Of a stretch of 64,000 nt of DNA, positions 13,811-64,000 are shown piece by piece. Made by a program: the position numbers and the translations under genes. The notes below the pieces were generated by a model, which saw nothing but the letters and a program-made list of their open reading frames with translations, ran no database searches and was not told where the DNA came from. Source of the stretch: Asparagopsis taxiformis (taxonomy: Eukaryota; Rhodophyta; Florideophyceae; Bonnemaisoniales; Bonnemaisoniaceae); assembly GCA_030407315.1 (NCBI GenBank), contig JALQPE010000110.1:1-64000 (forward strand), written 5' to 3'. Every line of letters starts with the position of its first letter. The stretch's first letter is position 1.

Positions 13811-13840
13811 GGACGTCCGCGTCCATTTCCGAGAACACAG
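13811..13840 (-). repeat. Terminal inverted repeat, 3' end of transposon copy 1
   Basis: Read outward-in on the - strand it begins CTGTGTTCTCGGAAATGG and continues to GGACGTCC. It agrees at 28 of 30 positions with the + strand sequence starting at 45054, and both are followed a few bases later by CTCTAGTAC. The flanking base sequence differs from that after the identical end at 19477, which fixes the boundary. Confidence 0.8.
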
Positions 13841-15877: not shown

Positions 15878-16527
15878 ATAGACGTCCGGTGAATGACCAG
15901 CGCAATTGCATTGCTGGCGAGCCCAGAAATTCTAAAATTTCAGTCAAGAAAAAAATGCAAAAATACATCGATTTGGGCGGTCGAAAGTGCCGTACGGCAC
16001 ACCCCATCTCAAAAACATGTTCACATGTGCATGTTTTTGAGAATAGCCCAAAAAATAAAGCAATTCAGGACGTCCGCCGGACATAGGCTTGATTCTAATT
16101 TGGCCACAACGCCCCAAAGCTACCAAGCGCCCCGAGCGGCCCCTCCCCGCTCACTTACCACCTCACGCCCATCTTGCAGAAACGTTCCCTGCTGGCCTCA
16201 TCCATGCCTTCCATCCACATCATAATCCTCTGCTGAGCTGTTCACCTTGGACGCTCACTGAGTACTCGTCTTCGACGTCCGCCAATGCAGACAACACCAT
16301 GAATACTAAACCCACCGTGGATCTCTCAGTATCAACGGTGGGCGTCCTATAAATGACTGCTATAGAACCATTGCCCCAGCCCTCCAGTTTGGACGCTCAG
16401 CCAACAGCGATTGCTGCTCTACCTCCTTGGTCGTTCTCCGATGCATGTAAATGCGCCAAAGTACGACCGATGGGGCAGTCCAAACTTTTTGTACCAGTGC
16501 ACGCCTAGGGATACCACAAGGTCGTCA

Positions 16528-16576
16528 TACACAACACAAAGACACAACACACAAACACACAAACACACAAACAACC
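16528..16576 (+). repeat. CA-rich low-complexity tract
   Basis: A run built of acac, acaaacac and similar units, without a fixed period. No function is suggested. Confidence 0.7.
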
Positions 16577-18599: not shown

Positions 18600-18618
18600 G
18601 GGGAGGGAGGGGAGTGGG
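18600..18618 (+). other. Potential G-quadruplex, second copy
   Basis: Same four-run G pattern and loop lengths as at 12924-12942. The motif stays intact although neighbouring G runs in this segment have gained or lost bases. Confidence 0.55.
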
Positions 18619-19447
18619 AGGATGGGTGCGAAGTGGGGGGTTGATATGTGTTCAGAGCGGGGAGGTTTCTGGGGAGACGGCGGGGGAGCGGGAGTCGTGG
18701 GCCGGTGGTGGTGGTGGTGTATACGGTATCGAAGATGCGGATGGCGTGGGGGCATGTAGCAGGTGAGGGAGGGAGGGGTGGAGCAGGTCGAAGAGTAAGC
18801 TGCAGGGAAGTTTGTGGAGAGGGCGAAGGAGAGGGGTTCAGGTAGAGGAGAGAGGGTATTGAAGAACAATACGTTGCAAAGGTGATGGGGGAGAGCATGG
18901 TCGAGGGGATAGGGGATGTTTTTCCCTATTCTGAGGTAGTATGAGGACTGGTTATACGAAATCTGTACGGTAGAGCAGAAAAGTAGGTATGGAATGGAGG
19001 TGTGCACCGTGGAAGCGGGGATAGGTAGCTGAAAATGCGTTCTAGGTGGTATTGGGGGTGTTTGAGGTACAGTACGGGGGAGGTGAGCACCCACAATGGA
19101 AGGGGTGTGAGCGAGAGGATGAAAAAATTAAAGACGAAAATTGGAGTCGACCGACAAGGAAAAATAGAGTGGTCGCCGTGATGGATGCGGACATCCATGT
19201 CGAGCAAGGCGGCAGAAATTTCTGGGGTCGAAATTTTTGAATTTCTGAACCGGCGCTCGTCCTAGGTTGACATAGGCATCGTGGAAGGCCATCCCGAGGG
19301 GGACATCCGTGGTACTAGAAACAATGAATGTCGTCCTAGTAATACTAGACGTACTAGACCGCATGGACGTCCGGTTCTAGGCGGACATCCAAAAATACTG
19401 GAGAACATGGACGTCCGCCTAGTAATACTAGGTGTACTAGAGGTTGT

Positions 19448-19477
19448 GGACGTCCGCGTCCATTTCCGAGAACACAG
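19448..19477 (-). repeat. Terminal inverted repeat, 3' end of the derivative element
   Basis: Identical over 30 bases to 13811-13840. The sequence after it (ttgaactgc) differs from the sequence after 13840 (acgtaagtg), which marks the outer boundary. Confidence 0.8.
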
Positions 19478-19753: not shown

Positions 19754-20194
19754 TGTAGTATACGTGGCCAATTCGAAAATGGCCAATATTTTGCGATTTC
19801 CGCGGAATTCTAATTTCGGCGGACACGACCGGTGACAGCAATGTACGAGCATTGCTGGCGCATGCGGCGCCGCGCAATCGGCACACGTGTGCAGACGAAC
19901 GGACTGCACGCGGCCAACGGACCACGGGTCCACACGCGCGACCCACAAGGTCCTTCCCCATTCGGGGACGTTACGAGCAGTTTTTTACAATGTAATGCGA
20001 TGCCATCGTGGATAAATAGGTATTGGCATCGTGCCGGAGGGAAAGGGGACAAGGATCGAGGGGAAACGAGCTCTAGTCTACGACTGACTTCTACGTTTCA
20101 CGTTTACGTTTACGCTAACAAGGCTACGTCTCCGTCGAGCTGCGCACTCCCTGCCCATAGCCACACGTGAGGCTGATCGCGTGTCGTGCCTACA
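19754..20194 (+). repeat. LTR-like repeat (solo LTR?), copy A
   Basis: About 440 bp matched in the same orientation at 44023-44447. It begins TGTAGTATACGTGGCC and ends CTACA, giving short inverted termini TGTAG/CTACA. A TATA-like ataaatagg lies at about 20010. These are typical LTR features. Both copies continue for about 14 bases beyond the end (gtttggt, then gagag), which might be part of a primer-binding site. No internal coding region joins the two copies; the 24 kb between them is host genes. Confidence 0.65.
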
Positions 20195-21125
20195 GGTTTG
20201 GTTGAGAGCGCCTCCGGTGACGTGCCACCTCGTTTGTTGACGTAATCCTCGCGTGGATTGTTGCGTCGTGACGCTCGTGTCCTACTCGCAACCCTACTCT
20301 CTACCTTCTACCTTCCTAACCATACAGTCAAACACTAGCGGGTGGCACTGTTCGTTGTTTCGTTTCGTCTAAAGGAAATCGTGTCCCATTGGGCTTGTAC
20401 CAGCTACTACGTCTAACGAACTATCTTCCACACAAAGAAGCGCCTGAGCGTCAGAATGCGATGTTCGAGCGCACGAAACTCGTACAAGTTGCTCTTTGTA
20501 CACATAACGGACATTAATTGAACGTTGGGATGATGATGACAAAGGTAGTGGGTTGTGTGTGCGTTGCATGATTGATGACGAGCTTTCGCGCGGAAAATTT
20601 GATAAGCTGCATTTTTTGAATGAGGATCGTGGATTGTGTGCTGAGTGTTTAGAGGGCAAACAGTCGGCGAGACCATCATTTTCGGTTACCTCATATTTTA
20701 CATGGGAATTGTACGCAACGTGATGTGATGGACGGGTCGACATTAAAATTGTTTGCAGTCGCTGCAAAACAAGTATCGTAGACTGACTGTTATCGGGTTG
20801 ATCGGTAGATGGTCGTGCTGTGCGATGATAATGTTGAGCGAAGTCCACTGTTACCCTGCAGCCGATGTTGAACTTTGGGAATTGCCAATACTTAGAGATT
20901 CAAAGGTAAGGGTTGGATCCAAGCGAGCGAATGAAAGATTTCTAATAGCGAACGTGTTACCTCACACGAAGACACGTTCACTCGCAGAGTATGGATGGGT
21001 GCGATAGTTGGATTGATGAATACAAGATTGGAAATCGTCCTGTCTACGTATTTTACTATTTTTACCACCTCACAAAGATGTATTATTATTTGCACTACCA
21101 CCGCCGTATGCACCCACCATGCGCT
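20195..21125. other. Intergenic stretch, no gene recognised
   Basis: Overlapping short frames on both strands (the longest is 20369-20848 on -) show no family motif. No RNA gene or repeat shared with other parts of the window is visible. Confidence 0.45.
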
Positions 21126-44022: not shown

Positions 44023-44447
44023 TGTAGTATACGTGGCCAATTCGAAAAATGACAAATATTTACGATTTCCGCGGACCCGAGCGATACCAGCAATGCACGA
44101 ACATTGCTGGCGCGTGCGCGCGCGCATTCGGCACACGTGTGCAGCAAACGAACTGGCACGCGGCCAATGGACCAACGGGTCCACACGCGCGACCCACAAG
44201 GTCCTTTCCCATTCGGGGACGTTACGAACAGTGATTACACTGTAATGCGATGCCATCGTGGCTAAATAGGTATTGGCATCGTGCCGGGAGGGAAAGGGGA
44301 CAAGCACAAGAACGAGCAACGGCTCTAGTTTACGACTGACTTCTACGTTTACGTTTTACGTTTCCGCCTAACGAGGCTGCGTTTCTGTCGAGCCGCGCAC
44401 TCCCTACCCATCGCCACACGTGAGGCTGATCGCGTGTCGTGCCTACG
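44023..44447 (+). repeat. LTR-like repeat, copy B
   Basis: Near copy of 19754-20194 in the same orientation. It begins TGTAGTATACGTGGCC, keeps the TATA-like ctaaatagg, and ends CTACG where copy A has CTACA. The sequences before the two copies are unrelated; after them about 14 bases are shared. Confidence 0.65.
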
Positions 44448-45053
44448 GGTTTGGTCGAGAGTGTCGTACCGCCTGACGGTCCTCGCTGATCGAGCCGTGT
44501 CGCTTCCCCATTGGGTACCCACTTACGGGATGTGCCAATCAGAAGGCACCAGCCAACTGGCGTGTTTCCTATACTTAGGACCAGCTAAGGCTGACAAATA
44601 ACCCCACCCGGGCCTATCGGCCCCGGCCAAGACCCCACAAGGGGCAAATTTTAACTTAGGCTGACCAGCCATACATTACAATGTAAGCCTATTGGCAATG
44701 ACCTCGCGGGTAGGCGAGCGCCAGTAATTGGGTTCTGATTGGTCACTAACTGGATATTTATTCCTAACCACTAACCCTAGCTTACAGTAGACTTAGTATA
44801 AAACTGCCACTGGAATAGCCAGTAGGCACGGTTTCTAGAGTAACGTAAACTCAAGTGGAATTACGACCCACAGGAACAGTGTTCGCATACCTATTGTTCA
44901 ACCCCTCTCCGGGAAAACCTTAGGGTTAGCCAACAGCTCGACGGATTACGTCATCTTGCTCCATTAATACGCATCTCGCGTGAGCGCTATAATCGCACAA
45001 CCCCCTCCGGGTAGCGATCCCTTCTCTCTCACGAGACTACCCGCCGGGTACGT
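44448..45053. other. Non-coding stretch between LTR-like repeat and transposon end
   Basis: No ORF. Contains a TATA-like agtataaaactgcc near 44794 and CCAATCAG-type sequence near 44534, so it could be part of another LTR. I found no second copy in the window to support that. Confidence 0.35.
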
Positions 45054-45083
45054 CTGTGTTTTCGGAAGTGGACGCGGACGTCC
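45054..45083 (+). repeat. Terminal inverted repeat, 5' end of transposon copy 2
   Basis: Starts CTGTGTTTTCGGAAGTGG and ends GGACGTCC. It matches 28 of 30 positions of the inverted ends at 13840 and 19477. Confidence 0.8.
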
Positions 45084-45175: not shown

Positions 45176-45655
45176 GACGTCCACTTTCTCTAGTACATAT
45201 GGCGGAATACTAGGGCCCGACATCCACTTTCTCTAGTACATATGGCGGAATACTAGGACCCGACATCCACTTTCTCTAGTACGTTTGGCGGAATACTAGG
45301 ACCCGACATCCACTTTCTCTAGTACATATGGCGGAATACTAGGACCCGACATCCACTTTCTCTAGTACATATGGCGGAATACTAGGGCCCGACATCCACT
45401 TTCTCTAGTACATATGGCGGAATACTAGGACCCGACATCCACTTTCTCTAGTACATATGGCGGAATACTAGGACCCGACATCCACTTTCTCTAGTACATA
45501 TGGCGGAATACTAGGACCCGACATCCACTTTCTCTAGTACATATGGCGGAATACTAGGACCCGACATCCACTTTCTCTAGTACATATGGCGGAATACTAG
45601 GACCCGACATCCACTTTCTCTAGTACATATGGCGGAATACTAGGACCCGACATCC
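45176..45655 (+). repeat. 43-bp tandem array, 11 full units plus a partial unit
   Basis: Unit starts gacatccactttctctagta and ends aatactaggaccc; units are identical except for a few bases (gacgt in the first, tacgtttgg in the third, gggccc in two). Each unit holds the inverted pair CTAGTA...TACTAG around CATATGGCGGAA. It lies about 120 bases inside the terminal repeat, where transposase-binding subterminal repeats are expected. Confidence 0.95.
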
Positions 45656-45780
45656 AGTATACAATATATCAGCGAAAACCGGGAGGGAAGAAATTACAGC
45701 GGATGGTAAATTCAGGGCCCATATCGGACCGTATTTTATTCTCTCATTTAGGAAACTGCTCGTATACAATACGTCTCTCT

Positions 45781-47935: not shown

Positions 47936-50900
47936 ATGGAATGCAAGTATGAAGGGTGCTTCTACTACTGCGTAGATGCTTATGCGCTCGCGCTGCATGA
48001 GCGAACGTGTCGCTACCGTTTCAACCCCTCTCCCCAACATTTCAACAACGCTCGTGTCCCTGCCGTCACCCATGAGCCTGCTCGAAACGGCGACCATGAT
48101 TCCCCGCAACCCAGCTCCCCAGACCCAGAATCTGGTCGTGCTTCCTCCAGCGACTCACCCTGTGACGCTTCACTGCCACCAACCTCAACCCCCTCCCGCG
48201 CAGACCTCCTCGTGCAATCCCTCGCCGCCAGTCTCACAACCCTCGAGTACAAGGCCGGCGCTGGCCGCGTGAGCGAAGTCATCACCATCCTACAAGACCC
48301 CGCATTCTCCCTAGAAAAGTTCAACAGCGCCGTTCGCACCGTAGAAGAATGTCGCCACGTTACCGCTTCCATGGTCGAAACACATTTCCGCACCGAAGGT
48401 TACAAGAGCCACATCATTCCAGACAAAACTGGTAAGTACTCGGCACAGCTGTACCTCCGCGACCCAGTCGACATGCTCCGCAGGCAGTTAGCACTGGCTA
48501 ACGACCAAAATACTCTCTTCCACCCCTCCCCACAGACCGCCCCAGACGGCACCGCAATATTTTCTCATCCCCTACACACAGAATTCGCGAAAACGCTGCA
48601 CCAGGTTACTAGACAGCGCGTGCAGCTCTCGGAAGATCCACAGGTCGTATGGGCAGAGGAAAATGATCCCACCGCTTCCTCCTTTGCCGGCCTCCTCCAA
48701 GTGTACTCCGACAAGAGCAGCACAAGCCTCAAGAGCTCCGCAATCGTCGCATACCCCATACACGTCACACTGCTCAACTTCTCCGCCCCCCTCCGTCGCC
48801 ACTGCATCCGTACCGGCCTCACCATCGTCGGGTATCTTCCGTACATTGTTAACCCTTCGTCCAACGCCTTGTTCGGTGATGAAATGCCGACAACCTCTAG
48901 TTCTGCTAGTCGCGCTCGCAAAATTGATATTCTTCATAAAGCACTCGAAAAAGTGTTTTCGTCCCTATCCACCGCGTTCTCTTCCGGGTTCCCCTGCACA
49001 GACTCCACTGCAACTGCCCGCCAATGCTTTCCCATCCTAGCCAATTATTGCTGCGACTTTCCAGAGGCCAAAGAGCTGTCATGCACTCGCAACAGCACTA
49101 CCACCACACATCCCTGCCACCGCTGCTACATCCCCGCCACTCAACTTGAATCCAGCGCGCCACACCAGCCCCGCTCCCTCGATGATACACGCTCTGCACG
49201 CCAAGAGAGCGCTCAGGAGCATACAACTGCTCCGCTCGAAGCTCTCTCCCTCCTCGAACAACACTCTGTCCTCGAATCGACCGCTCTTTTACCCACCAAC
49301 AGTCCCCTAGACCCCTACAACATTTTCTCCTTCGAGCCTCTGCACAATCTCCACCTCGGCATCTCAAAGCTCATCAAACAGTGCATTGTCCACCGCCTCA
49401 GCTCCCCAGACCTCACCACCACTGCCTCCCATTCCGGGACACCTCGCACCTTCAAGAAGGTGAAAAAATCCATCCTCGCCGGCTCAAACAGCATTCTGTC
49501 CGCTATCGAACGCGACTACTACATCACCGGTCTTCATGTCGACTTCTCCAAGGGTGAGAAGGGCACCAATTTGAACGGCCTCTTCACGGAGGACGGCATA
49601 CGCGGCATGCTCGCAGCCAAAGACTATCACCATGTCGACATGGTGTTCCCTTTCATCGCAGCATTCATTGACACATGCTGTGACGAAGTAGATACAGCCC
49701 CCCTCACTTCCATCTGCACGCAATACTCTGACCTCGTCGCATGGGTCATGAAACGCGGTCGCATCAAGCACTGGACTGCCGCCGAACTAGAAAGCCTCCA
49801 GAACTCCATTTCCTATTTCAAACAATCAATGCTCTCCACCCTCGGCCCATTCCACACCACAGGTCTCAAAACTTTCAAGTTCCATCTTCTAGACCATCTT
49901 CCCGGTGACTTGCAGAGATATGGCGCCCTGGAACACATTGATGCAGGCCCCTACGAACACTCGCATCTTCTGTTCAAACAGAGTTATAGGAAAACCTCTC
50001 GAAGGCGCTCCACAGCCATGGAAGAGACTATTCGCCACATGGAATTCTCCTTGGCCACTCCAACTGGTCATACCCCATCGAACACATTGGGAAACGCACG
50101 CATGATATCGCCCACAGACGGTGCAGTACTCGTTCGCGACGGATTCACCGTTGCACTGCACGACTTTGCCTCCCTGCTGCCCGATGCAACCCTCCTCGTT
50201 GCAGATATCGACGGACAGCCCGATCCTGCCACTCTTTTGCCGCTGCACAACTCCTCGTTCCCGTCTGGCACCATAACGCTATTCCAGCAACTCGGTGACA
50301 CAGCTGCACAAGCGTTCCTCACCCTCGCTAGACTGCGCGCCACGGCAGAAGGCCCTCCAATACATGACATGGACATTTCCGTCACCGTGGTAAAGTCCGC
50401 CTACGTCATGGGAGGGTACGTCCCAGATGCCGACGACTTTGACCCGCACAGTGGCATGCTTCGCCCCACAAACGTGTCGAGGCACAAGCAGCAGCGCGTC
50501 TTTGCAACTTCATCGTTCGGCCCCGCAAAGAGATCGCAGTACTCCTTTGTCGTCATCTCCGGAACTGCCGATGACTACAGAACCATATGGGTAGGGCGCG
50601 TCCTGGCACTGGTACGCCTGCAGTCTCCAAACCTGTTTCAACCTGTAGAACTCGCTTTCGTTCAGTATATGACCTGCTTTGCCCCAAAAACCGCTGTGGA
50701 AAAATCACTTGGGTGCATTTGTTTAAAGTGGTCCACATGGGACCCGGACAACGGATCCGTTGACAGCAATGACACTGCATCCCACAGTGCAGGTGGTCCT
50801 TGGTTTGACCTCATTCCTGCATCTACTATATCTGGCACCGTGCACATCGTACGAAGTAACTTTCCAGTCAAGCCATTTACGAAACAAATGCACTGGTCGG

Positions 50901-50974
50901 ACCACCGTTTCTATCTCAACCGCTTCTACACCAACACTGATTACCAATTCACAGATGATAATGAAGAAGAATAA
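47936..50974 (+). CDS. Plavaka/CACTA-like transposase
   Basis: 1,012 residues, uninterrupted, from the ATG at 47936 (gacATGg). The first 26 residues hold Cys and His in a zinc-finger-like spacing (CKYEGCFYYC...HERTC). A middle block near residue 458 reads DPYNIFSFEPLHNLHLGISK, like the Asp/His-containing LHxxxxGxxK motif of Plavaka/CACTA-type transposases. A block near residue 649 reads HLLDHLPGDLQRYGALEHID and is followed by PYEHSHLLFKQSYRKTSRR, the conserved C-terminal region of the same group. It is the only transposase candidate in the window and lies 3' of the terminal repeat and arrays. The superfamily call rests on these motifs; the catalytic DDE residues cannot be assigned with certainty. 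Confidence 0.6.
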   Translation: MECKYEGCFYYCVDAYALALHERTCRYRFNPSPQHFNNARVPAVTHEPARNGDHDSPQPSSPDPESGRASSSDSPCDASLPPTSTPSRADLLVQSLAASLTTLEYKAGAGRVSEVITILQDPAFSLEKFNSAVRTVEECRHVTASMVETHFRTEGYKSHIIPDKTGKYSAQLYLRDPVDMLRRQLALANDQNTLFHPSPQTAPDGTAIFSHPLHTEFAKTLHQVTRQRVQLSEDPQVVWAEENDPTASSFAGLLQVYSDKSSTSLKSSAIVAYPIHVTLLNFSAPLRRHCIRTGLTIVGYLPYIVNPSSNALFGDEMPTTSSSASRARKIDILHKALEKVFSSLSTAFSSGFPCTDSTATARQCFPILANYCCDFPEAKELSCTRNSTTTTHPCHRCYIPATQLESSAPHQPRSLDDTRSARQESAQEHTTAPLEALSLLEQHSVLESTALLPTNSPLDPYNIFSFEPLHNLHLGISKLIKQCIVHRLSSPDLTTTASHSGTPRTFKKVKKSILAGSNSILSAIERDYYITGLHVDFSKGEKGTNLNGLFTEDGIRGMLAAKDYHHVDMVFPFIAAFIDTCCDEVDTAPLTSICTQYSDLVAWVMKRGRIKHWTAAELESLQNSISYFKQSMLSTLGPFHTTGLKTFKFHLLDHLPGDLQRYGALEHIDAGPYEHSHLLFKQSYRKTSRRRSTAMEETIRHMEFSLATPTGHTPSNTLGNARMISPTDGAVLVRDGFTVALHDFASLLPDATLLVADIDGQPDPATLLPLHNSSFPSGTITLFQQLGDTAAQAFLTLARLRATAEGPPIHDMDISVTVVKSAYVMGGYVPDADDFDPHSGMLRPTNVSRHKQQRVFATSSFGPAKRSQYSFVVISGTADDYRTIWVGRVLALVRLQSPNLFQPVELAFVQYMTCFAPKTAVEKSLGCICLKWSTWDPDNGSVDSNDTASHSAGGPWFDLIPASTISGTVHIVRSNFPVKPFTKQMHWSDHRFYLNRFYTNTDYQFTDDNEEE

Positions 50975-51051: not shown

Positions 51052-53336
51052 TCAACCATCCTCCATTACGCCAAAACCGTTATCAGCAGTGGCTGCATGG
51101 CGCCGCTCCATGCCCCCATACTGTGGGGCATTGATTTCGACATTCAGGTTTGCAGTCAGGTGTCCAGCATATGGGTCAACGACGAAAAGTTCTGCGCCAA
51201 TTAGTCCTTGCGCAATCACACAATCCATTACAGCACCGAGGTTTGACGTAATATGCGATTGAATCCAATCCTCGGACACTAGAACAAGTGATGAGCAGCG
51301 GTTTACATCATCAACGACATGAACAATTCCAGACCCCTCTCCGCTTTGCCACACTTCAACAGCCTCTCTCGTCACAGTACGGCTTGCAAACACATGCCGT
51401 GACTGTGCACTAGTCCGCTGTTCGCTCTCGACAACGTCCGTTTCTTCCCTTGCTTGCGAGCCTTGGAGACAAGACATGCAGTACACCACCATACCAACTA
51501 ATTGCTGAAAAGCTACCCCCACATATTGACTGTACCGCCTTGTAAACTCCTTCTGCCGTGCACCTCCTTTCCCCTTCGGTTCATCCAAACACTCCACAGT
51601 AGTCACTAGCCAAGCATCCAGGCGCGCCAGCGTTAGTATGCTCGTCTCTATGTCCATTACTTGTTCTGGTCGTATCGAATAACCCCTGAAGATGTCCAGC
51701 ACATTCACAGCTACTCGGTTGTTAAACCATGCATCACCATTCACTTCCATTTCGAAGCTGTCAGGAACCAAGCCTTTGCTGTATCGCAGCTCTGAGAACG
51801 GTGCCGTTCGCCACCTCCCCATATCCAAATCACCGTTACTTTCCCGTTTCAAAAGCTTCTCAGACGCTTCGCGCTTTTGTTCCTCTCGCTCGTCCATCTC
51901 AGCTCGCGTCGTCAGCATCGTGCATCTAGACATTAATTTCGTGTACCCCAGCGAACCGAACAATCTGTCCCTCGCATTACGCTTCCGTGCACTCATCACG
52001 TCGGACAGTTTCTGCGTCACCTTCACTTTCAATTCCTTGCTCCCCGCCACAGCCTCTTGACAGCACACACGCTGCTCCTCATCGGAAAACACATCACACC
52101 ACGGACTTTGACGCAGTACGTGTCGCACCAAGTCATTCAGCAGATCACTCTCGTCCCTGTACGAAGGTGTATACCACTGCAGATTCTTGATGATATAGCC
52201 CGGAGGGGTAGCAATATATCCTACACCGTTTTCGCTCCAAAGTGCCCCTTCTACCGGCTCTACCTCGATGGTACGTCCAGTCCAACGTCTCTGCGTTTGT
52301 TCCGCTATAGGGTCCAGCTCCATAGTCTCGTTCTTGCACCACTTTGTCAGGTTTTCCTCAACCGCCCTAAGAACTCCAAGGTATTTCACAGGAATGGCTT
52401 TCTGTATTTTCGACTTACCGCCACCGTGATCACTGATTCTACCTGTTCTCGCAATTGCAGTAAGGCTGGCATTTTCCGCCTGCAGAGTCTTCACCTTAGC
52501 CTCCAACGCAACAATCTCCGTGGTGAGCGCCTTGTTTGCTATGTCCTGGCTAAACACTTTTTTTTCCAGCTCCGCGATCTTCTTCTTCTGCGCATTGATG
52601 CGACTCGCCATTAAATCGATGGATTCCGGCGGATGCAACCTCTCTGCCCTCACCGTCCCCCCATCTCCCACGCTATCGGGAATATGATGTCCTCCATCGC
52701 CAATAGCCTGACGTCGCGGGGGCGTTACGCGCATATTTGGCACCAATGACACTCTGTTGTGACGAGGCCCGCACTCCGGCTGCTCTCTCCCCTCAGTACC
52801 ACCTGACCGCCGATGATAGTTGGCATCCTGTGAACGTTGCTCAGAAACAACATCCCTTGCCGCTATCCTCGGGTCCCTGACTGCATTACCTGCTGGGGCT
52901 GATGTACTCGGCATAGTTGGCGCAGTGGGGGTCACAGCCTCCAGTGTCTCGGAACCCCCGGCTGGGACTCCGTCTGCAGCACCTCCGCATCTGCCAACCC
53001 GGGAGGAACTACCTTTGCCATAGCACTCTGCCGCAATTCCAACATGTTTTGAGCCACTATCATGTCATCATCATGATGTTCACTGTCCCTGCGAGCACGC
53101 TTGCCTCGGTCAAGCCCCATCTCTCTCCGCGCCGTTCCTCCTTCCTCACTTTCTCGCTGCGGATCCCCAGTTCTGCGCCGGTCCGTCTTGCGACTACCGG
53201 ACCGCGGTTCAATGCTGCCGGTAGGCCCAGACCGCTTCTTCGCACGGGATTGTCGGGCACTCGATACAGCAGCTGCTGACCGGGTTTTCTGGAGGCCCGG
53301 AGGCTTTGGAGCTTTCTTCGCAATACGCGGCGGCAT
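51052..53336 (-). CDS. Coiled-coil protein of the transposon, unknown function (one apparent frameshift)
   Basis: The start at 53336 (ATG) opens MPPRIAKKAPKPPGLQKTRS, a Lys/Arg/Pro-rich N-terminus that looks nuclear. This frame ends at 52932. The next frame carries on without a proper ATG (TSAPAGNAVRDPRIAARDVV) to the stop at 51052. One shift near 52940-52990 joins them into about 760 residues. A coiled coil (INAQKKKIAELEKKVFSQDI and following) is followed by an unknown globular part with CDVFSDEEQRVCCQEAV. No catalytic motif is recognised. It ends 78 bases from the transposase-like gene, tail to tail, as second proteins of transposons often do. The break could be an assembly error or a short intron I could not place. 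Confidence 0.55.
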
Positions 53337-53557: not shown

Positions 53558-54127
53558 TCCGGAAGACGTCCTGATTTGAATTAAAATTTGGGCTATTCTC
53601 AAAAACATGCACATGTGAACATGTTTTTGAGATGGGGGTGTGCCGTACGGCACAATCGACCGCCCAAATCGATGTTTTTTGCAATATTTTTTTGTGCCCG
53701 AAATTTTAGAATTTCTGGGCTGGCCAGCAATGCAATCGAGCTGGACATCCACCGGACGTCCATTTCAGGTTGGTCGTGAGAGAGCGGGGCGGGACCATGA
53801 TGGAACAAGGACCAAGACCTGTCCCTGGCGTATTGAGCCTGAAATTGACCCTTCGTCAGACGCCATTTAGCCTTACAGTTGGTGCTTACAGAAGCCAGTG
53901 ATGACCCCGCTCGGGGCGGCGGTCGGTTCCTGGGGCCGTTGTGGCCAAATTAGACACCCTGATTTGAATTAAAATTTGGGCTATTCTCAAAAACATGCAC
54001 ATGTGAACATGTTTTTGAAATGGGGGTGTGCCGTACGGCACAATCGGCCGCCCAAATCAAGGTTTTTTACAATATTTTTGCTGCCCGAAATTCTACAATT
54101 TCTGGGCTGGCCAGTAATGCATTAGCT
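53558..54127 (-). repeat. Two palindromic core repeats, reverse orientation
   Basis: Cores at about 53558-53775 and 53876-54127 with the usual hairpin and GTGCCGTACGGCAC. The outer one begins atgtccggaagacgtcc, matching (inverted) the outer end of the isolated core at 15878-16083. With the core at 55221 they form the reverse-oriented cluster upstream of the cargo genes. Confidence 0.9.
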
Positions 54128-54594
54128 ATGTGCTCTAAACCGATTCTAACAAGCAGAAAGAATCCTCTCCTTCATGACGATGCTCTCGAATTGAGTGCAA
54201 TGCAACGGACTCCCTCCAGGAGAACGACAAAGCATCGTCTTTTGCAAGACATTTTCGTACGAAAAATAATCGAAACACATATTTGACTTTAACCTAACAG
54301 CTATCGCGAGCACCGTACTCAGCTAAATTTCCTCTGTAATTTCCTTCCTCCAACCAATCAATAGCCGCTTGGTCACAGGCTTAAAAGCCTTCCACTATTT
54401 GTCCTATCCATCGAAGAGGGTTCGATCCAGGCCTTGATGGGTGTGGAACCCGAGAACTTGAAAATGGAACATATTGCGACAGAGATGAGATGTCATTCTC
54501 TTTCGTTTACTTTTTTCTAACAAGATTCTAAACGTCTACGCAGCGGAACGAACCCAATGTCGTCCGTCCGTTTTCAGCCCGGTGAGATGTTTTT

Positions 54595-54930
54595 GCCATT
54601 AACGGAGGTGGAGGCGGCTATGGAGGAAGCCTGCGGTTCGGGTATTCTTTCCATTAACGGAGGTGGAGGTGGCGGCTTTGGAGGAAGCCTGGAGAACATG
54701 TGAGATGTCAGTACCCATGGATCACAAGAAAAACATGTAGAGGTCCAGTTTGGATATTGTTGCCATTAACGGAGGCGGAGGAGGCGGCTACGGTGGAAGC
54801 CTGGAGAGCATGTGAGATGTCAGTACCCATGGATCACATGAAGAACATGTTGAGGTGCGGTTCGGATATTCTTTCCATTAACGGAGGCGGAGGAGGCGGC
54901 TACGGTGGAAGCCTGGAGAAGAATAGAATA
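54595..54930 (+). repeat. Imperfect tandem repeat of the GGAGG-rich unit, copy 2
   Basis: Four units as at 458-790, here with the fourth reading SINGGGGGGYGGSL in full. Single-base differences from copy 1 fall mostly in short runs. Confidence 0.7.
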
Positions 54931-55220
54931 GTCCTATACCCATGGATCACAAGTAGACGTAGTTGGGCTCCTTTTCGAAGCCCATTCGTCTCTTGAATAA
55001 ATTTAGCACCCAAATCATATACGATTGCCGAGTTGACACCCCGTATGTCTCGTTGGTAGAAATAGCAGGGGTTCCACCACTCAGCTGGCGGGAAGTAGTT
55101 ACTGATTATATGAGATATGGCTTAGCTCCCGCCAAAACCGATAGCTCTGGGCTCAGGTTCTCCAAATGTGGTTATACGAATGTGTTCTGACAATGGTAGA
55201 AGACGAATATCTGCATCCTG

Positions 55221-55420
55221 CTTTGAATTAAAATTTGGGCTATTCTCAAAAACATGCACATGTGAACATGTTTTTGAGATGGGGGTGTGCCGTACGGCAC
55301 AATCGACCGCCGAAATCGATGTTTTTTGCAATATTTTTTCTGCCCGAAATTGTAGAATTTCTGGGCTGGCCAGCAATGCATCTGAGTCGGACATCCCCAC
55401 GTCCAGTGGCCGTCCGGATG
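55221..55420 (-). repeat. Palindromic core repeat, reverse orientation, upstream of the methyltransferase-SET gene
   Basis: Equivalent of 1084-1285 in copy 1, with the same 12-base-arm hairpin and 14-base palindrome. It lies about 310 bases before the ATG of the methyltransferase-SET gene and may contribute to its 5' region. Confidence 0.9.
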
Positions 55421-55731
55421 TCGCTCACCTGGTAAGCGTGAGGCACCTGTGTCAACCTATGTGACTGGCGGCCTTGCAGTACAACACTCAAAGGCAGGGA
55501 ATCACAATCTTTTTAAAATTTTTTCTCTACCACGTATCCGTCACAACTTATTACCTACACCGGTTACGGGTTTCAAGACCTTTCCAGTGCTGTGTACCCG
55601 TATACTCTGTTCCGTTCGATATCAACCAGTGTTCCTCACGAAAGAGTGCAAACGTCACGAGATACGTCGTCAAATTTGACTGTCTCGCCGAGCGGTCGCC
55701 ATCCTGTACCGAATTTTCCACTCATTCCATT

Positions 55732-58700
55732 ATGACGAATAAGCGCAGGCGCAACAGCAATCCGATCGTTGACGACGCAACCGTGCCAATTCTGCGCGAA
55801 CCCGCTAGCCCTTGGGAGGATTCTAGTGACATGGGTACACGTCGAAACGTAGGTCGCGCCGCCCGCGAAACTACTCTCGCTGGCAAAGACTTCCTCCGCC
55901 TCTTGCTGGATTTATTCGCCCACTCAAGTTTCGCAGACTTGACGGACAAGCCGGGAGGTTTCACATACGCGGACCTTGGCGCTTGGGTTGCGCAGGGCAC
56001 GGAAGAACAATTTGTGGCGCTGCAAGGTCGACTCAGCATGTCCTTCAGCGGTCGTTCGAAGAATGCTGGAGTCGAGGCGGATGTTGCCGAAATCGTCATG
56101 GCAGAGATGAACGTTGAGCGAGCCAAGCAGATTGTTCGTCTGGCATTACCCATTGCCGAGTTTTCAAGACAGGATGAGCGTATCGGGCAATGGGTTGAGC
56201 ACTGCATCCTTTCTGGGATCGTGCCGCAGACCTTCCTTATTGGATGTAACATGCTTCCTTCGCCACTACAGGCGCCGCAGCGCGGGGAACCAAGCGCCTT
56301 CGTTCTTGCTCCACCGGAAACGTTCGAGGTATTGATGTATTTCCAAGCGTTGTCTATCATCCGAAATCACAACAAGAACCTGCCGCGTCGCCGAATAGGA
56401 GATGCGGCCGAAGAGGGGAACGAAGCCGCACGCGTCCCAGCCCATCGGAAAAGCACTAATCGAGCTTGTTACGTGGTTCAAGTTTTATACCATGCTTGGA
56501 CCGATGTGGCCTACGCCGCAAAGTTTTCCAGCTTCGAAGAGTTGATGGCGCCGTACATCATTTTCGACAGCAGTGAGCATTGGTTTGACGTGCTCGATGA
56601 AGGTCTATTCGCACCGATGGAGCAGAAGCTAGATCTCTACCACAACAAAGCTCCCCTATCTCATCCTGATGGATATGGTGGAAAAGTAGAGACAAGAACC
56701 AGTGCGCAGCACAGTGCATTTAGGGACCTTGTGAGGAAGTTCTTCGACCGGTTGCAGTTTCTTATCGTCAACCCGGACCTGTACACCTGGCCGGAGTCCG
56801 ACCGCTGGGGGGCACTGGAAATATACTTCTCAAGCGGAAATCCGGACAAGCTGCCAGCGTATTTTGACACCCTCGACGAAGACGTTATGGCTGTCCTCCG
56901 CCCGGCACCACAAGCCGCGGACGCAGAAAAGGTCCCCAAGCCGGTTGATGACACTCCCACTCGTCGCAACACAGGAGGGAGAGGTTTGGTTCCGTCGACA
57001 AGACACACAACCAGGCTTCAACTTGGACCTGGGAGGACCAGTCTTACTGCCCAAGGGCCGTCTCCCCCGTCACCGTCACCCCATGCGACAGAAGAGCAGG
57101 AAAGTGAAGGGCAGGCTCTCGCAAAGGACTTTCTTTCGAAAATGAGTCAGTATTGCCGGGTGTACGACGTCCCTTTCGAAGATTTGGTCAGTGCCGACGA
57201 GAGCCGAGAACACGTGCCCATCACGGGCAACGTTCAGCTCATTCTGACTGATCCGCCCTACAATGTTCGTCGTAAGAGGAACGATTCCAACTCTTCGTAC
57301 GACAGGCTAACTGCAGAAGATATGCAGGCTAGCATCGAAGTGTTTGACGAGCTGTTGCGCCCCGGTGGCCACGGCATCGTGTTCTGCTCGGTTTTGCAGT
57401 TCTACGAATGGTTCCATTACTTGGAAACGTACAAAGGACCGCAGTCAGAAGGCCCAACCGATACTGCTGCCAGTGATGACGGGTCGGATGAAGAAGAGGT
57501 TACGTCCATGAATTCGGACTCCGAAGCATCGCAGCACAGTGGCGAAGAAAGTGCGGATGAGGAGGAGGACGAGGAGGAGGAGGACGTCGTTCGGAATTCA
57601 GTTTTCTTCGTTGACGAGGTACCTCTGTTGTTTGTCCGACTACCTGGGCACCTCTATCAAATGCCGGGGCGGAAGAGGTACCAACGCATGAACATGGCAG
57701 AGGTCGCTATCCACTTCTGGAAGCGAGGTGTTCCGTTCAAGACCGGAAGCGAGATGGTGGCCTATAGGAACCACGGATACATGGACGGCACGTACCCGGC
57801 GTGGTGCAACGTCACCATCAATATGCCCGCCATCGATTCGAATGAGATGGTGTGGCGAACAAGGAGCACAACCGGTGCTACGGTCAGAGTTCGTGCAGAG
57901 CAGAAGAGCGTCGCTCTCATGATGGAGTTGATCAGCCAGCATTCACAGCCTGGTGATATTGTTGTCGATCCATTCTCTGGCACTTTCGCAACGGGAAAAG
58001 CAGCTATGAGCTTGCCTGAGCACCGTGTTTTCGTCGGCAGTGACATGGACAAATTGTGTGTGGTACGATCGCTTCCAAAGCTGTGTGCAGTCATGTCACG
58101 TGTAATTCTTTCAAACAACACTGACATGAGGGTCACGACAGAAGCGAAACAGAGTGCTGAGAAGTTCTTGGCGTCCCCCTCTGTCACGATGCGTACGCAG
58201 AGGGAACGCAGGATCATCGAACCCCCACCTGGCCTTCCCCTGTACCAGAGGTTCCCGAAATATATTCGGCAGTACCTCTGGCAGCTGTGCCCAGAGTCGA
58301 TTGCGTCGCGCGAGCACATGGAGAAACCGGTACATTATTGGCCACCTTCCCTGCGCCGCTGGTTGCAAACTGAAAACCCTCGCGTGATGCGGGCACACGA
58401 TTGTGTTGCGAAAAAATTGAGCGTTCGACCATCGCTGATTAAGCATCCAAATGCAGGAAGAGGGCTCTTCGCTGAACAGACATTTAATGTTGGTGACGAA
58501 GTATGTGCATACTACGGAACTGTTGTGTACTCTGATATGAGCAAGGAGTCGATGAGGTTCGCGTACGGAGAGGGTCACATGGCGATAACGAAGGAAACAT
58601 TCTTGATGTATGCTATCAAGCTGTATGCAACAGCGGAGGACGACGAAAACATCGAGCATCCAATTTGGATTGTTCCGGCTCCGTTCTGTTCGGCGCAGTT

Positions 58701-58929
58701 CATCAACGACCCGCGGTATTTGCGAGGTGAGGACACTCCGGCGGAAGACACCAGGCGGATGGCCAACGTCGAGTTTGTCGAGAACTACAGCAGCGGTTCG
58801 ACGGGGAAGAAGCTCAAGGCGAAGGACCTAGAAAATCCGAAGATCATTGTAGTACGTGCAATCCGCGATATCCGTCCGGGGCAGGAGCTCTACGTTCATT
58901 ATGGGACAGCGTTTAGAGCATGGAATTAG
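55732..58929 (+). CDS. DNA amino-methyltransferase-SET domain fusion protein
   Basis: 1,065 residues from the ATG at 55732 (attATGacg); the frame is open upstream but that part is the 5' repeat region. Residues 1-500: no recognised domain, with a Ser/Pro-rich stretch before 500. Residues about 500-790: a DNA methyltransferase with LILTDPPYNVRR (near 506; DPPY is the catalytic motif of N6-adenine/N4-cytosine enzymes), an acidic insert (about 588-623), and then VVDPFSGTFATG (near 745; the AdoMet motif). This motif order is the beta-class arrangement. Residues about 900-1065: a SET domain with HPNAGRGLFAEQTF, FINDPR and ANVEFVE in place of the usual NHS/PN pattern, and ELYVHYG at the end. SET domains methylate lysines. 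One protein would thus carry two AdoMet-dependent writer domains. Base and lysine targets are unknown. The altered FINDPR segment raises a question about SET activity. Confidence 0.85.
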   Translation: MTNKRRRNSNPIVDDATVPILREPASPWEDSSDMGTRRNVGRAARETTLAGKDFLRLLLDLFAHSSFADLTDKPGGFTYADLGAWVAQGTEEQFVALQGRLSMSFSGRSKNAGVEADVAEIVMAEMNVERAKQIVRLALPIAEFSRQDERIGQWVEHCILSGIVPQTFLIGCNMLPSPLQAPQRGEPSAFVLAPPETFEVLMYFQALSIIRNHNKNLPRRRIGDAAEEGNEAARVPAHRKSTNRACYVVQVLYHAWTDVAYAAKFSSFEELMAPYIIFDSSEHWFDVLDEGLFAPMEQKLDLYHNKAPLSHPDGYGGKVETRTSAQHSAFRDLVRKFFDRLQFLIVNPDLYTWPESDRWGALEIYFSSGNPDKLPAYFDTLDEDVMAVLRPAPQAADAEKVPKPVDDTPTRRNTGGRGLVPSTRHTTRLQLGPGRTSLTAQGPSPPSPSPHATEEQESEGQALAKDFLSKMSQYCRVYDVPFEDLVSADESREHVPITGNVQLILTDPPYNVRRKRNDSNSSYDRLTAEDMQASIEVFDELLRPGGHGIVFCSVLQFYEWFHYLETYKGPQSEGPTDTAASDDGSDEEEVTSMNSDSEASQHSGEESADEEEDEEEEDVVRNSVFFVDEVPLLFVRLPGHLYQMPGRKRYQRMNMAEVAIHFWKRGVPFKTGSEMVAYRNHGYMDGTYPAWCNVTINMPAIDSNEMVWRTRSTTGATVRVRAEQKSVALMMELISQHSQPGDIVVDPFSGTFATGKAAMSLPEHRVFVGSDMDKLCVVRSLPKLCAVMSRVILSNNTDMRVTTEAKQSAEKFLASPSVTMRTQRERRIIEPPPGLPLYQRFPKYIRQYLWQLCPESIASREHMEKPVHYWPPSLRRWLQTENPRVMRAHDCVAKKLSVRPSLIKHPNAGRGLFAEQTFNVGDEVCAYYGTVVYSDMSKESMRFAYGEGHMAITKETFLMYAIKLYATAEDDENIEHPIWIVPAPFCSAQFINDPRYLRGEDTPAEDTRRMANVEFVENYSSGSTGKKLKAKDLENPKIIVVRAIRDIRPGQELYVHYGTAFRAWN

Positions 58930-59157
58930 GGTCACGAAAGATGTTTTCATTTCGACTACAAATAAAGCTACGTTCCAGAGTTGAAGTATATCATATAATG
59001 CAGAATGTCCAGCCACCATTAGTCCAGGGTGAAACCTATTCGGCAGTACTCGCCTGTCAAAAACCAATCGTTCACACTCTAGGTGCACTTCGTCCGAGCA
59101 GTGAACCTGACTGCTTGGTTGCTGTTATGCGTGCAGATGCAAAATACAAGACCAAGT

Positions 59158-59865
59158 TGAAATGGACGCCCGGTGGATGTCCAGCTCAGTTGCATTGCTG
59201 TCCAGCCCAGAAATTCTACAATTCAGGGCAGAAAAAATATTGCAAAAAACATCGATTTCAGCGGGTCGATTGTGCCGTACGGCACACCCCCATCTCAAAA
59301 ACATGTTCACATGTGCATGTTTTTGAGAATAGCCCAAATTTTAATTCAAATCAGGGTGTCTAATTTGGCCACAACGGCCCCAGGAACCGACCGCCGCCCC
59401 GAGTGGGGTTGTCACTGGCTTCTGTAAGCACTAACTGTGAGGCTAAATGGCGCCGGAAGATGGGTCGATTGCAGGCTTCAAGCCTAAGTTATGCTAGGGA
59501 GAAATCTTCTTCCGTGTTTCATCATGGTCCCGCCTTACTCCCTCAACAGAAACACTACTCACCCATCACGTTACTCATATTCCGTGCACTTTATATTAGT
59601 AGTGAACCCGCCTGCTTAGTTGCTGCAATGCGTGGATGTAGGCAGCACACGACCAACCTGAAATGGACGTCCGGTGGATGTCCATCTCAGATGCACTGCT
59701 GGCCAGCCCAGAAATTCTAAAATTTCGGGCACAAAAAATCTTGCAAAAATCAACGATTTGGGCGGGTCGATTGTGCCGTACGGCACACCCCCATCTCAAA
59801 AACATGTTCACATGTGCATGTTTTTGAGAATAGCCCAAATTTTAACTCAAATCAGGGTGTTCCCC
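59158..59865 (+). repeat. Two palindromic core repeats between the cargo genes
   Basis: Cores near 59158 and 59651, spaced about 500 bp. Copy 1 has three cores here; the 388 bases missing correspond to one core plus its spacer. Confidence 0.9.
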
Positions 59866-60204
59866 GGATAAAGGGGTGCTCGCAGCCGCCCCAAAAGCCG
59901 CCTAGCTTGACAGCTGTAATTTTAACACATTACACATCAAGGACACTGCCTGCTTCACGCCACCTCGTCAGGTTTCGAGAGCCCGACTCGGGCCCGTTCT
60001 GAACGGACACTCACATCTCGATTGCCTGTCTTGCATTCCAGCGGTCACGATAGGTGTGTACCTAACAAAATTTCGGTTGTATTGTGTTATTATTTCCAGC
60101 GATTGGCGTTCACGACCATTCTTCAACTTAACGTGAAACATACCATCCACATCACTCGAATACGTCAACGTCAACCATCTCTTTTCCTTTCCAACTCAAC
60201 AACC

Positions 60205-63200
60205 ATGGCGGATACGCATTTCAGCAGTTTGTTTTCAACGGTTTGCGGCGATCAAGTGAGCGCGTCAGCGGAGTCGCGCGGACTCAAGCGCGGCGTCGAT
60301 GTCGACTTGTTTGCGGACGTGGACGGTGCGGCTGTGCATATTGGGACGGCTTCGGTGAGCACTGCTGGTGGCGATGTTGGCCTTCCGCGCACGCTGCACA
60401 ACCACAAGCTGCCGGAAACCGACGAGGCCGACTATATCGTCGTGCGCAACATTGCGACTAAGGACAAGTTCAAGGACCTCCCGTTCCCGTACATGTTTGA
60501 TGGCGCCGAGGGACCGCCGGAGACGATGGGTGGAGCATACGCCGCGGCGTTTTACCCTTGGGATACTCGGATGATGCGCCCCGCTGCGGAGGATGGCTCT
60601 AGCGACATTCGTACCCCTGCTGCAGCGTCAAACTTCAACGCAGCGACGAACCAGGCCAGCTCGGGACGGATGCCCAGTACCGGTCCAGCAGGCGAAATCA
60701 CTGGTTCGGGGGGTACGAAGCATCCAGCACGCTCCGTCCCGGTTTCGGGAGGCACGAAGCGCCCTGCTCGCTCTGCCAGAGCCTCCAGTGGAGGCACGAA
60801 GCACCCTGCTCGCTCCAACGTCACCGAAGCTACTACGCAGGACGTAACCGAGGTGGACGACGAACCGGAGGTGGCGGAAAGCATTCGTGAGCAGCAGGGG
60901 ACGCAAATTATGGTGCCCAAGTTTGTGACGTCGGATTACGTCGGAGAAGGAGCGACTGTGTTGGTGAGGCAGCTAGTGGAACCGGCCGTGACCCTTCGCG
61001 ATGTCAAAGAAGACCACGTGGAGGACCTGCGCAACAATATGTTGGCGGTGGGGTATGTGAGCTCTTCGCGTATCACTGTGACGGTGCTGAGGTCGCAGAA
61101 CACGCATTTGTCCGCCGACACGCGTCTGTTCCAGAATGGCAAATTCCATGCCAATGCGAACGTGACCGTGATCGACGGACTGCATCGTCTCAATGCTATG
61201 CATAGCATTGCGGATGACTTCACGCGCCTCACCCGTATGCACAGAACCAAGCTGCCACAGGAGGCAAACCGCTTGCGCTGGGTTACTCAGCCTCTGGATG
61301 TGTACTACCTTCGCCGCAAGGACGACAGTGATCTCCAGCCTCATGAGATCATCCACAAGAGTGCAGAGTCGAACCATACGACTGGGACGCAACTGACGGA
61401 GCGCTCCCTGGTTCGAATCTTGTCGTCCATCCAGCAGTTCATCCGTACGATTGCTGTTGCAAACAACGTGGAAAACGCTGGCGACTTGCGTGAGTCTGAT
61501 GTCATCCGAACATTGTTCGAGGCGCAGTTCATGGGGATGATGAATTCGACGAACACGGCTCGGCGGTGGACGCGTTTGGCTATAGCAACGCTGAAGCATC
61601 CTGTTCTCGACGACGTGTTGCGTGAGCTGAACAATTCCGAGCGCCGCAACGAGATTGGGATAACGCACCTGGACCACAAGATAGTGCGCGAGTTGCTGGA
61701 AGAAAACTTTGTCTTCGTCTTGCGTGGTCTTTCGGAGTACTTGAACCCTGCTCATGGCGGACGTCCGGATGGACGCTTTGACGTGAACGACTTTTATACA
61801 TACGTCCGTCGCGTGACTGCAATAGCAAATTCTCTGTACGCTGCGTTTGGGCGCCCAAAGAGTATTATGCGCAAGTCATTTCTGAGCACAGAGATGGCAA
61901 TTGGGTCGGTTAAGCAGCCGAAGGAGTTGCAATGGCATCTCACCAATGCCATTGCAATGTATAGAGGGGACGACCGGAGCAGTGAGGTTCGAATGCGACG
62001 GAGAACCACGCGTTTACAGGATTTGGAAACGAACTTGAAAGAGTTTTTCAATCCGACATTGAAGAAGAAGACTAAGGCTCGACGCAAACGCCGCCCTTCT
62101 GCTGCCAATGTGAGACTCACTCACAAGAAGCAGCGGAATGTCGAACATGAGCCTGCTTCGCATGGCATCCGCCGCCGTTCACAGCGACTTCGCTCGACGG
62201 GGAGCACACGCCTCGAGGAAGAAGAGCCGGTTGTGGTACAACAATCCGCCGGGGAAGAAGAGCAGGCCGTTGTTGATAAACCCACCGATCAACAACAAGC
62301 CACTGCTTCCGGTGATGAGGTTGACGAAGACTCCGCCCGTTCCCCCGATTCTGCCGTTGAGATTGTCCCCCAAGATAACCAACGTGCTGGTGCGACTCCC
62401 TCCAACCAAGAATCTGTCCATACCGCTTCGGACGAGGAAGACAAACAGGGTGCAGACGAGGGCCAAGTCGAAAGCAAGGGGGTCCGCGAAGTGACAATTA
62501 CATTCACTGTTCCGGAAGGAGTGGAAGTCGATGAAGACGGTTACATCGTTCGTGACTCTCCTTCTGAAGACGACCTCCTCTTCGACGACCGTATGCCGTC
62601 TCTTCCTGACGATTTCGAAGACCGAGCCGAAGGGCATCATCTGGCGCAGCGTCCCGCGGATGTCATCGCATCGGTGAGGGTTGGCTGTCTGCCCCCGATT
62701 GAGCTCAGGTTGTTATTGGAGAGTGTGGAAATCGATGAGGAGGGCAGAGAGGTGAGGTATTTGAAGCAAGTGGCGATGGACCCTGTGTTTGAGGGGCTGC
62801 ATATTCCGGAAGAACATCGGGCTCGTGTGCTATTCGAAATCGATCACGTCTATCCGATGTTCTTCGCAGCGTGGAAGATGGCTGCCAAGGCGATGTGTGA
62901 GCCTACATCGACGTTTCTACCCTCGAGGCTGGACTTCGCCCAGGTTGCGCGAATGTCTACAAGCTGGAAGGATTCGTATGAGGCCGGCACTGGTATGGCG
63001 TACTTCCACAATTGCCGAACGGAAATCAACGAGCGAGGGTATACGGTGATGCACAATTTCGCGGATGTAAGCTACCTAGATGCGTCGGACAAGTTCCCAT
63101 TTGACTTGGGTCTCATGGAAGAAATTCCTAACCAGGAATTGTTTCGGTACTTTTGGGAACGTGGGAGGGGGAGCAGGTGCACAAGGACCCTGGGAACCGG

Positions 63201-64000
63201 CAGCTGTGGAGTCCCATTGTCAATACGGGGGACGATGAAACAGACGAGAAGAACCGGAATGAGGGGAGGGCTCGCTTCACGTCTACGCGCCACTGCCTGG
63301 TTGACTATGCCGAGAACGATGAGACGCATATCGACCGGTTCAAGTTTGTGACGCGGCGAGCCCTGCTGGATGTGTGGTTGGGAATCCTTGTCCGGCTGAC
63401 AGGGCTGGAGGAGTGCGGTTTACCGGGAGAAAAACTTGTCATGCCGGCATCTGGGGGACGGTTTTTGATAACGGGAAAGGGGTGTCCTCGGCAGGTCCCA
63501 CACAATGATTTCCCTGTTCCTCCTCGCGACCGCAAAGATCAACTTCCGGGTTACTTTGTTATTGCCAACGGAGATGACCCATTCCCTATCTGGGTGTGTC
63601 CAGGGTCCCACAAGTACGTCTTTTCCAAAGCGCTGGAATTAGATATGTACGCCAAGACGATGAAGCTGAAGAAGGTAATCGTTCCGCCACGTTCAGTCTT
63701 CATCGGTCACGGCCATGTACAACATGCCGGGGCAGGGCATGTCGACAGAGTTGTGTCACACACGACAACGAGGTATCACACGTATTTCAGGAATGCGTCG
63801 TATCCGATTCCCGACAATGTTTCGTTTGGTTTCATCAGGCGGTTGGGATTCGAAGAAGAAGTCATCGCCAATGCTCCGCGCCGGTCTGCAAGGCAAAGTC
63901 AACCGGCACCTGTCAATGTTCGCCACAAGACAGTTGTTCCCATCCCGGTCAAGAAAGATGGTAGGCCGAAGACAGGGCAGCTCCGAATGATGCGGATGAA
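60205..64000 (+). CDS. ParB-like / Fe(II)-2OG dioxygenase fusion gene, copy 2 (frameshift near 63154; cut by window end)
   Basis: ATG at 60205 (accATGgcg). Intact through the ParB-like region (VIDGLHRLNAM), the basic and acidic linkers and the start of the dioxygenase part (VLFEIDHVYPMFFAAWKM), where copy 1 is broken. At 63151-63154 it has four T where copy 1 has five, which shifts the frame before the dioxygenase HxD. Beyond this the sequence again follows copy 1 to the window end, with the HxD and distal His present in the shifted frame. The two copies are therefore broken at different places, and each is intact where the other is broken. A working gene of about 1,315 codons is likely in the genome. 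The last bases (about 100) and the stop lie outside. Confidence 0.75.

Follow-up and report, generated by a model that had tools for sequence, protein, structure and literature searches.

Why would a DNA transposon carry, beside its transposase, genes for proteins that resemble writers and erasers of chromatin marks? The question is raised by a stretch of 64,000 nucleotides from the red alga Asparagopsis taxiformis (assembly GCA_030407315.1, 141.5 Mb in 3156 contigs; contig JALQPE010000110.1, G000:C110:1-64000 in our numbering), here called the window, in which two adjacent genes occur twice. One encodes a putative DNA amino-methyltransferase joined to a SET domain (MTase-SET) and the other a ParB-like domain joined to a putative 2-oxoglutarate (2OG) dioxygenase (ParB/2OG). 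This cargo sits in a giant Plavaka-type (EnSpm/CACTA-related) DNA transposon. The best overall explanation, which is tentative and falls just short of probable, is that the transposon carries a combined amino-methyl and histone writer together with a ParB-like dioxygenase.

An earlier note on this DNA, made from its letters and open reading frames, had described the gene pair as duplicated cargo of a mobile element, with units at 1597-10403 and 55732-64000. The duplication is borne out by alignment (2-5344 against 54149-59481 at 98.9%; 5399-10255 against 59147-64000 at 99.1%). These bounds hold for the pair, whereas the full unit is larger, with its left end at 45051 and a transposase at 47936-50974, and the left-hand copy has its right end at 13843. 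The transposase, 1012 residues in an open frame on the plus strand, contains a Plavaka-type domain (PF18759, E = 1.6e-24, 87.2 bits against a cut-off of 26.3 in a Pfam profile search of the window's proteins). A CxxC can be seen in its translation. It has 123 scored genomic matches out of 1208 candidates; here, as in the similarity searches with SET, the ParB/2OG frame and a 601-bp element piece, the best candidates only were scored.

The right-hand element begins with its left terminal inverted repeat (45051-45083, plus strand), which starts with CGTCTGTG and is followed by a 43-bp subterminal tandem repeat in 11.2 copies (45176-45656, plus strand). The left-hand element has its right terminal inverted repeat at 13811-13843 on the minus strand. 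The terminal repeat, CGTCTGTGTT(T/C)TCGGAA(G/A)TGGACGCGGACGTCC, has separate left and right forms, and the termini read CGTCTGTG..CACAGACG. Its inner 30 bases have 2731 genome-wide matches at one mismatch or fewer, against 0 for the reversed control, and 11 of 11 inward-facing neighbouring end pairs consist of one left and one right form (an analysis that omitted three ends on C100 from the list of 100 and so took in 97, together with a portion of the cargo lists). Of the ten end pairs read, six are flanked by a perfect target duplication of 2 bp (aa, tg, tt, ga, ta or at), with a chance expectation of about 1 in 16 per pair; the exact terminus was fixed on these same ten pairs. Two copies show both cargo genes bracketed by a left and a right end: C52, flanked by a perfect TA/TA duplication, and C88, where no duplication is seen. 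In the C52 copy the SET, ParB and 2OG sites lie between the ends and the exact MTase motif is absent from the list. Domain, terminal inverted repeats, target duplications and copy number together establish the element as a DNA transposon, an identification that we regard as practically certain. A second right-type end, lacking the outermost 3 bases, is found at 19448-19477 on the minus strand; it belongs to a related element, lies beside the left-hand one (region 13844-19477) and has an end region that is 93% similar.

The gene order of the right-hand copy is left terminal repeat, 43-bp repeats, transposase, a gene for a 627-residue protein, an inverted repeat block, MTase-SET, repeats of about 500 bp and ParB/2OG. 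Its right end lies past the end of the contig, whose last 1.2 kb follows the window and takes in the tail of ParB/2OG; in a copy on C436 the right end comes about 4.7 kb after the point that matches window position 63290. Pieced together from copies, the window layout would measure about 23 kb; three bounded copies of the other layout, with MTase-SET inverted, measure 20.0-20.8 kb. Cargo motif sites are abundant in the genome: with up to three mismatches, 984 were counted for MTase, 937 for ParB and 913 for 2OG, and the reversed-pattern controls gave 0, which excludes chance. These copy numbers may be inflated by assembly redundancy, and the accompanying lists give about 100 places per motif, all of them exact. 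The 601-bp element piece is identical at all 40 scored places (of 1042 candidates), a figure that points to recent spread of the sequence, in a sample biased because only the best candidates were scored. Six bounded elements of 10-12 kb (on C11, C12, C14, C20, C49 and C90) show no exact cargo motif.

The earlier note had named absence of the linked pair from any other genome copy as a refuting result. Among the sites listed up to contig C266 (70 MTase and 97 ParB; the count stops there), 49 of the 70 for MTase lie no more than 12 kb from a ParB site. Linkage is thus established within this genome, where the refuting result did not occur. In 17 of these the genes are collinear, as in the window, in 32 the MTase-SET gene is inverted, and no other layout occurs. 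The 21 MTase sites that have no ParB site in the list may have mismatched or off-contig partners, because the list is exact and limited to C266. For 79 of 97 ParB sites a 2OG motif follows on the same strand at a distance of 1-5 kb downstream, in 76 cases at 2.32-2.33 kb. The two orientations of MTase-SET are likely to have arisen by recombination between inverted repeat blocks. Repeats of about 500 bp (59073-59910, plus strand) separate the cargo genes, and a block at 53564-54122 is inverted relative to that at 59-60 kb (repeat I7, 53836-54049 against 59264-59477, 94%), so that the blocks flank the MTase-SET gene on both sides. In C178 (L052) the inverted layout adjoins the transposase. The segment 55216-59910 is possibly invertible, MTase-SET being found in two orientations among copies.

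The MTase-SET gene of the right-hand copy (55732-58929, plus strand) is open and encodes 1065 residues, with an N6_N4_Mtase domain at about 57232-58053 and a SET domain at 58456-58905; the second copy (1597-4793, plus strand) is frame-broken near its start. Homology is established for both domains, since each exceeds its Pfam cut-off: PF01555 at E = 4.1e-15 (56.8 bits against 26.7) and PF00856 at E = 1.1e-6 (29.5 bits against 22.4). The proposed fusion of an amino-methyltransferase with SET on one polypeptide was therefore correct. The closest chains in the Protein Data Bank (PDB) to the methyltransferase are DpnA (E = 6.4e-8) and CcrM (0.0029). PADLOC models of type II methyltransferases also match it (best 7.4e-13), as do NCBIfam adenine-methyltransferase models with scores below their cut-offs. 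DPPY comes first in the protein and DPFSGT second; motif IV thus precedes motif I, the order of the beta, or permuted, class of N6/N4 amino-methyltransferases. A database search (7999 scored candidates) yielded six relatives, one 98% identical and five at 28-33%. YYG is present in the SET part of 6/6 sequences, and the terminal YG tyrosine, presumably catalytic, in 5/5 that reach this position. No tblastn match to the protein was found in a phage collection.

The ParB/2OG gene extends from 60205 past the end of the window (plus strand), with DGxHR at 61168-61200, HxD at 63489-63521 and the distal H at 63708-63743. Its frame is broken once, between the two domains. In the second copy (6457-10403, plus strand) the frame is broken before the 2OG domain is reached, and the stretch that encodes this domain is open at 9111-10403; both genes of the left-hand copy are thus broken. 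The claim that ParB and dioxygenase share one polypeptide fails for either window copy and holds elsewhere, a single open frame of 1403 codons being present at 16 of 42 listed genomic places (about 1310 residues from the first plausible ATG in six fetched copies). The broken-frame allele of the right-hand copy has at least 48 exact sites, against 913-937 motif sites at up to three mismatches, and so looks like a minority variant; programmed frameshifting was considered and set aside on these counts. Among 28 sites (fetched loci plus window) the broken-frame allele stands at 15 against 13, in a set drawn with a frame-broken query and with the right-hand window copy counted twice.

Selection on this gene was examined in the first 1000 codons of ten of 30 fetched copies, most of them frame-broken further downstream, using 37 pairs that each show 20 differences or more. 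The ratio of nonsynonymous to synonymous differences (pN/pS) between two groups of copies is 0.18-0.40, which establishes past purifying selection. The protein has four remote homologues (P0005, P0012, P0013 and P0014) and aligns lengthwise with P0005 at 34% identity. Residues H1161, D1163, H1235 and R1251 (P0004 numbering) are invariant in all five proteins; we take HxD...H to be an iron triad and the distal arginine to be the basic residue that binds 2OG. The dioxygenase is putative, its identity being drawn from these motifs alone.

The D-G-x-H-R motif, of ParB type, is likewise invariant in 5/5 proteins, and profiles weakly support a ParB-like domain. The five-sequence consensus of this part matches DndB (E = 0.0068, 16 against a cut-off of 29.1 bits) and DGQHR (E = 0.012, 15.4 against 58.85 bits). 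Single homologues match DUF1015 (0.0047) and DndB (0.012), one of them also giving an implausible avian adenovirus fibre match (0.0016), and the protein's own ParB part matches only HslU, at 0.049, in NCBIfam. A ParB profile run against the PDB has SbnI as its sole match (E = 1.4), on the DGxHR motif, and SbnI is, we assume, a ParB/Srx protein. The consensus alone found no ParB structure in the PDB, its top matches being unrelated (E = 0.48). These profiles bear on another reading, in which the cargo works in trans, its target being host chromatin or rival elements, and the ParB-like domain is a nuclease or nucleotide sensor, not a locator of element DNA. DndB and DGQHR are the nearest profiles, and the available text of two papers (PMC5512222, PMC10853773) reports nuclease or NTPase roles for domains of the ParB/Srx superfamily in conflict systems. 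However, both scores lie under their curated cut-offs and the target would be hypothetical, so that we consider this reading decidedly improbable.

What kind of DNA mark might such proteins handle? A six-frame search of the host assembly, which ignored introns and was made on a possibly incomplete assembly, gave no match to C5-cytosine methyltransferase (PF00145), and 10 of 14 control genomes were positive. The observed/expected ratio of CpG is 0.98-1.00 in host and element parts of the window. Both results make an amino-type mark the more likely one. Since the host search detected no C5 methyltransferase, the removal of 5-methylcytosine (5mC) is a disfavoured role; a TET-like 5mC eraser, considered as a candidate, is disfavoured by this, by the CpG ratio and by the lack of a TET_JBP match. 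In Pfam neither TET_JBP nor another 2OG family matched at E up to 10 (the HMMER filters discard most matches beyond about 0.1). Outside the element family there are ten strong SET matches, which look like host genes.

In the explanation favoured here, the transposase would move the element and the MTase-SET protein would methylate exocyclic amino groups of element DNA, as N6-methyladenine (6mA) or N4-methylcytosine (4mC), while its SET domain would methylate a histone tail. Together, the DNA and histone marks would give the element a chromatin state that host silencing leaves on. The ParB-like domain may bind DNA or sense nucleotides, and the attached dioxygenase may remove or oxidise a methyl mark on DNA or histone near element DNA; the net effect would be that silencing is escaped or shaped. 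We infer all of the catalytic steps, their targets and the identity of the dioxygenase. That the cargo proteins jointly form an anti-silencing or self-marking kit is possible rather than probable. A stronger version, in which the transposon runs a closed amino-methylation cycle (6mA/4mC writer, histone writer and ParB-loaded dioxygenase eraser) in a host that lacks 5mC, and in which this portable chromatin identity has led to several hundred to about 1000 copies, seems quite unlikely. If the cargo works as proposed, it would amount to a mobile chromatin system complete in itself, in a host apparently without 5mC, and a natural test of an epigenetic role for amino-methyl DNA marks in eukaryotes. 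Raw PacBio data of A. taxiformis are reported as deposited under PRJNA809757 in the available part of PMC12115072; if these records keep read kinetics, the DNA-mark prediction could be tested with no new sequencing.

Several observations weigh against this explanation. Four of the ten end pairs, C88 included, lack a target duplication. The catalytic motif DPPY of the methyltransferase is found here and in one of five remote homologues, the other four reading DPPQ, YPPY, APPQ and DPPL, so that DNA methylation may not be conserved across the family. The N-H motif of SET, which we take to be cofactor-binding, reads N-D in 6/6 sequences, so that we do not claim the protein to be an active lysine methyltransferase. 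Within copy groups the pN/pS of the ParB/2OG gene is 0.50-0.92, giving evidence of past constraint between groups and of little within them. The 2OG domain has no relevant match in Pfam, NCBIfam, PHROGs, PADLOC or PDB sequences (best unrelated matches: DUF6027, 0.041; ribosomal protein S27, 0.22); profiles upheld the methyltransferase and SET domains of the earlier note, weakly its ParB-like domain, and not its dioxygenase. The 2OG profile matched one host PhyH at E = 0.03, but one of 30 shuffled controls scored higher, and the comparison counts as no support.

The last two results favour the view that the C-terminal domain is something other than a 2OG dioxygenase and that the kit comprises a writer and an accessory protein with no eraser. 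Set against this, the HxD, SH, HAG and RYH blocks occur in order and are invariant in 5/5 proteins, and visual comparison with a host PhyH at C733 shows parallels in both order and local sequence; we consider a kit with no eraser unlikely. The 2OG domain has no relative in prokaryote genomes searched with two patterns. A viral origin was considered and set aside, since IMG/VR scans with both proteins and the 2OG domain, at two peptide patterns per scan, gave no relative.

Could the cargo instead be a decaying passenger with no part in the element's success? The ParB/2OG gene is frame-broken in both window copies, and the 10-12 kb elements in which no exact cargo motif was found fit such a view. 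The between-group pN/pS, the 1403-codon frame at 16 of 42 places and the lengthwise alignment with a homologue as remote as P0005 argue against it, and some single-base breaks may be long-read assembly errors; decay is, on balance, very doubtful.

A further possibility concerns the palindrome GGACGTCC, which has an adenine on both strands. It occurs 14 times in the window's two elements and not at all in 23.7 kb of the host part; 2 of these sites fall within the ParB/2OG gene, and the remaining 12 are close to ends or in repeat blocks. Methylation of GGACGTCC-type repeats might then govern transposition, with the transposase or the coiled-coil protein described below reading the state (for example, excision coupled to replication) and the dioxygenase resetting it, a scheme in keeping with a gene set that travels with the transposase. 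However, four other 8-base palindromes have a similar frequency in the elements and are absent from the host part, the link between GGACGTCC and the methyltransferase is hypothetical, and such motifs could equally be sites to which an accessory transposition protein binds. The scheme has a low probability in our view, and cargo that shapes the chromatin state of the element remains the preferred reading.

The coiled-coil protein is the 627-residue product of the gene at 51052-52935 (minus strand), which has a coiled-coil-like stretch. The gene lies tail to tail with the transposase gene and is kept beside it in C178 too. Its product is possibly an accessory transposition protein, and could bind DNA at the subterminal repeats in such an accessory role.

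Between the elements, a direct repeat of about 400 bp (19813-20208 against 44065-44461, 88%) flanks an island of host genes, among them those for GMC oxidoreductase and ubiquitin hydrolase. Elsewhere in the assembly, a 224-kb contig has 11 of 13 phycobilisome-family matches and fits a red-algal plastid; its phycoerythrin beta matches R-phycoerythrin beta chains at E = 3.8e-95, the top row of that search (4.1e-96) being named fluorescent protein. The published L6 assembly of A. taxiformis is given as 142.47 Mb in 3308 contigs with 70.67% repeats, and a figure legend in the available text labels the contig of the bromoform (mbb) cluster with site-specific and adenine-specific DNA methyltransferase genes (PMC12115072). 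These genes might be cargo of the present transposon family.

How does the element compare with known systems? The earlier note regarded it as a new kind of self-regulating or host-manipulating transposon, a claim that goes too far, TET/JBP-carrying and SET-carrying transposons being already in print (PMC12730594, available part). Fungal Plavaka, KDZ and EnSpm elements carry TET/JBP, with silencing escape as the proposed role, and oomycete HarbingerS/MuDR elements carry SET, as cited there. The fungal TET/JBP Plavaka elements share with the algal one a PF18759 transposase, 2-bp target duplications and presumed dioxygenase cargo. Their termini are given as TGT..ACA (PlavakaA) or CATCA..TGATG (PlavakaB) in the same text, whereas those of the algal element, CGTCTGTG...CACAGACG, match neither, so that it is filed as Plavaka-type by its transposase only. 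Unlike the fungal cargo, the presumed algal dioxygenase is not detectably TET/JBP, comes with a ParB-like domain and has an MTase-SET fusion as its partner, and the host is a red alga in which no C5 methyltransferase was detected. HarbingerS/MuDR elements are likewise DNA transposons with a SET histone methyltransferase as cargo; they differ in transposase superfamily, and the algal SET is fused to an amino-methyltransferase and has N-D for N-H.

Giant Plavaka repeats of Amoebidium contain recombinase genes with red-algal or dinoflagellate relatives; the cargo described for them is tyrosine recombinases, and the available part of that text mentions neither MTase-SET nor ParB/2OG (PMC11244446). 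DndB, to which the algal protein shows weak profile similarity around DGxHR, is called a ParB-superfamily protein; it is a component of bacterial phosphorothioation, with no dioxygenase fusion described in the accessible text (PMC10853773). TET/JBP or SET cargo, a captured amino-methyltransferase and giant Plavaka elements are thus known already. The combination found here, an MTase-SET fusion and a ParB/2OG protein in a transposon, is absent from the literature searched, which took in few subscription papers. For the captured methyltransferase, the closest parallel is N4CMT of bdelloid rotifers, a beta-class N6_N4 methyltransferase captured by a eukaryote, the targets of whose 4mC mark include transposons (PMC8885841, in part). 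Both proteins join a permuted beta-class N6_N4 methyltransferase to a chromatin-type domain; N4CMT, however, is a host gene with a chromodomain, whereas the algal protein is transposon cargo in which a putative amino-methyltransferase is joined to SET.

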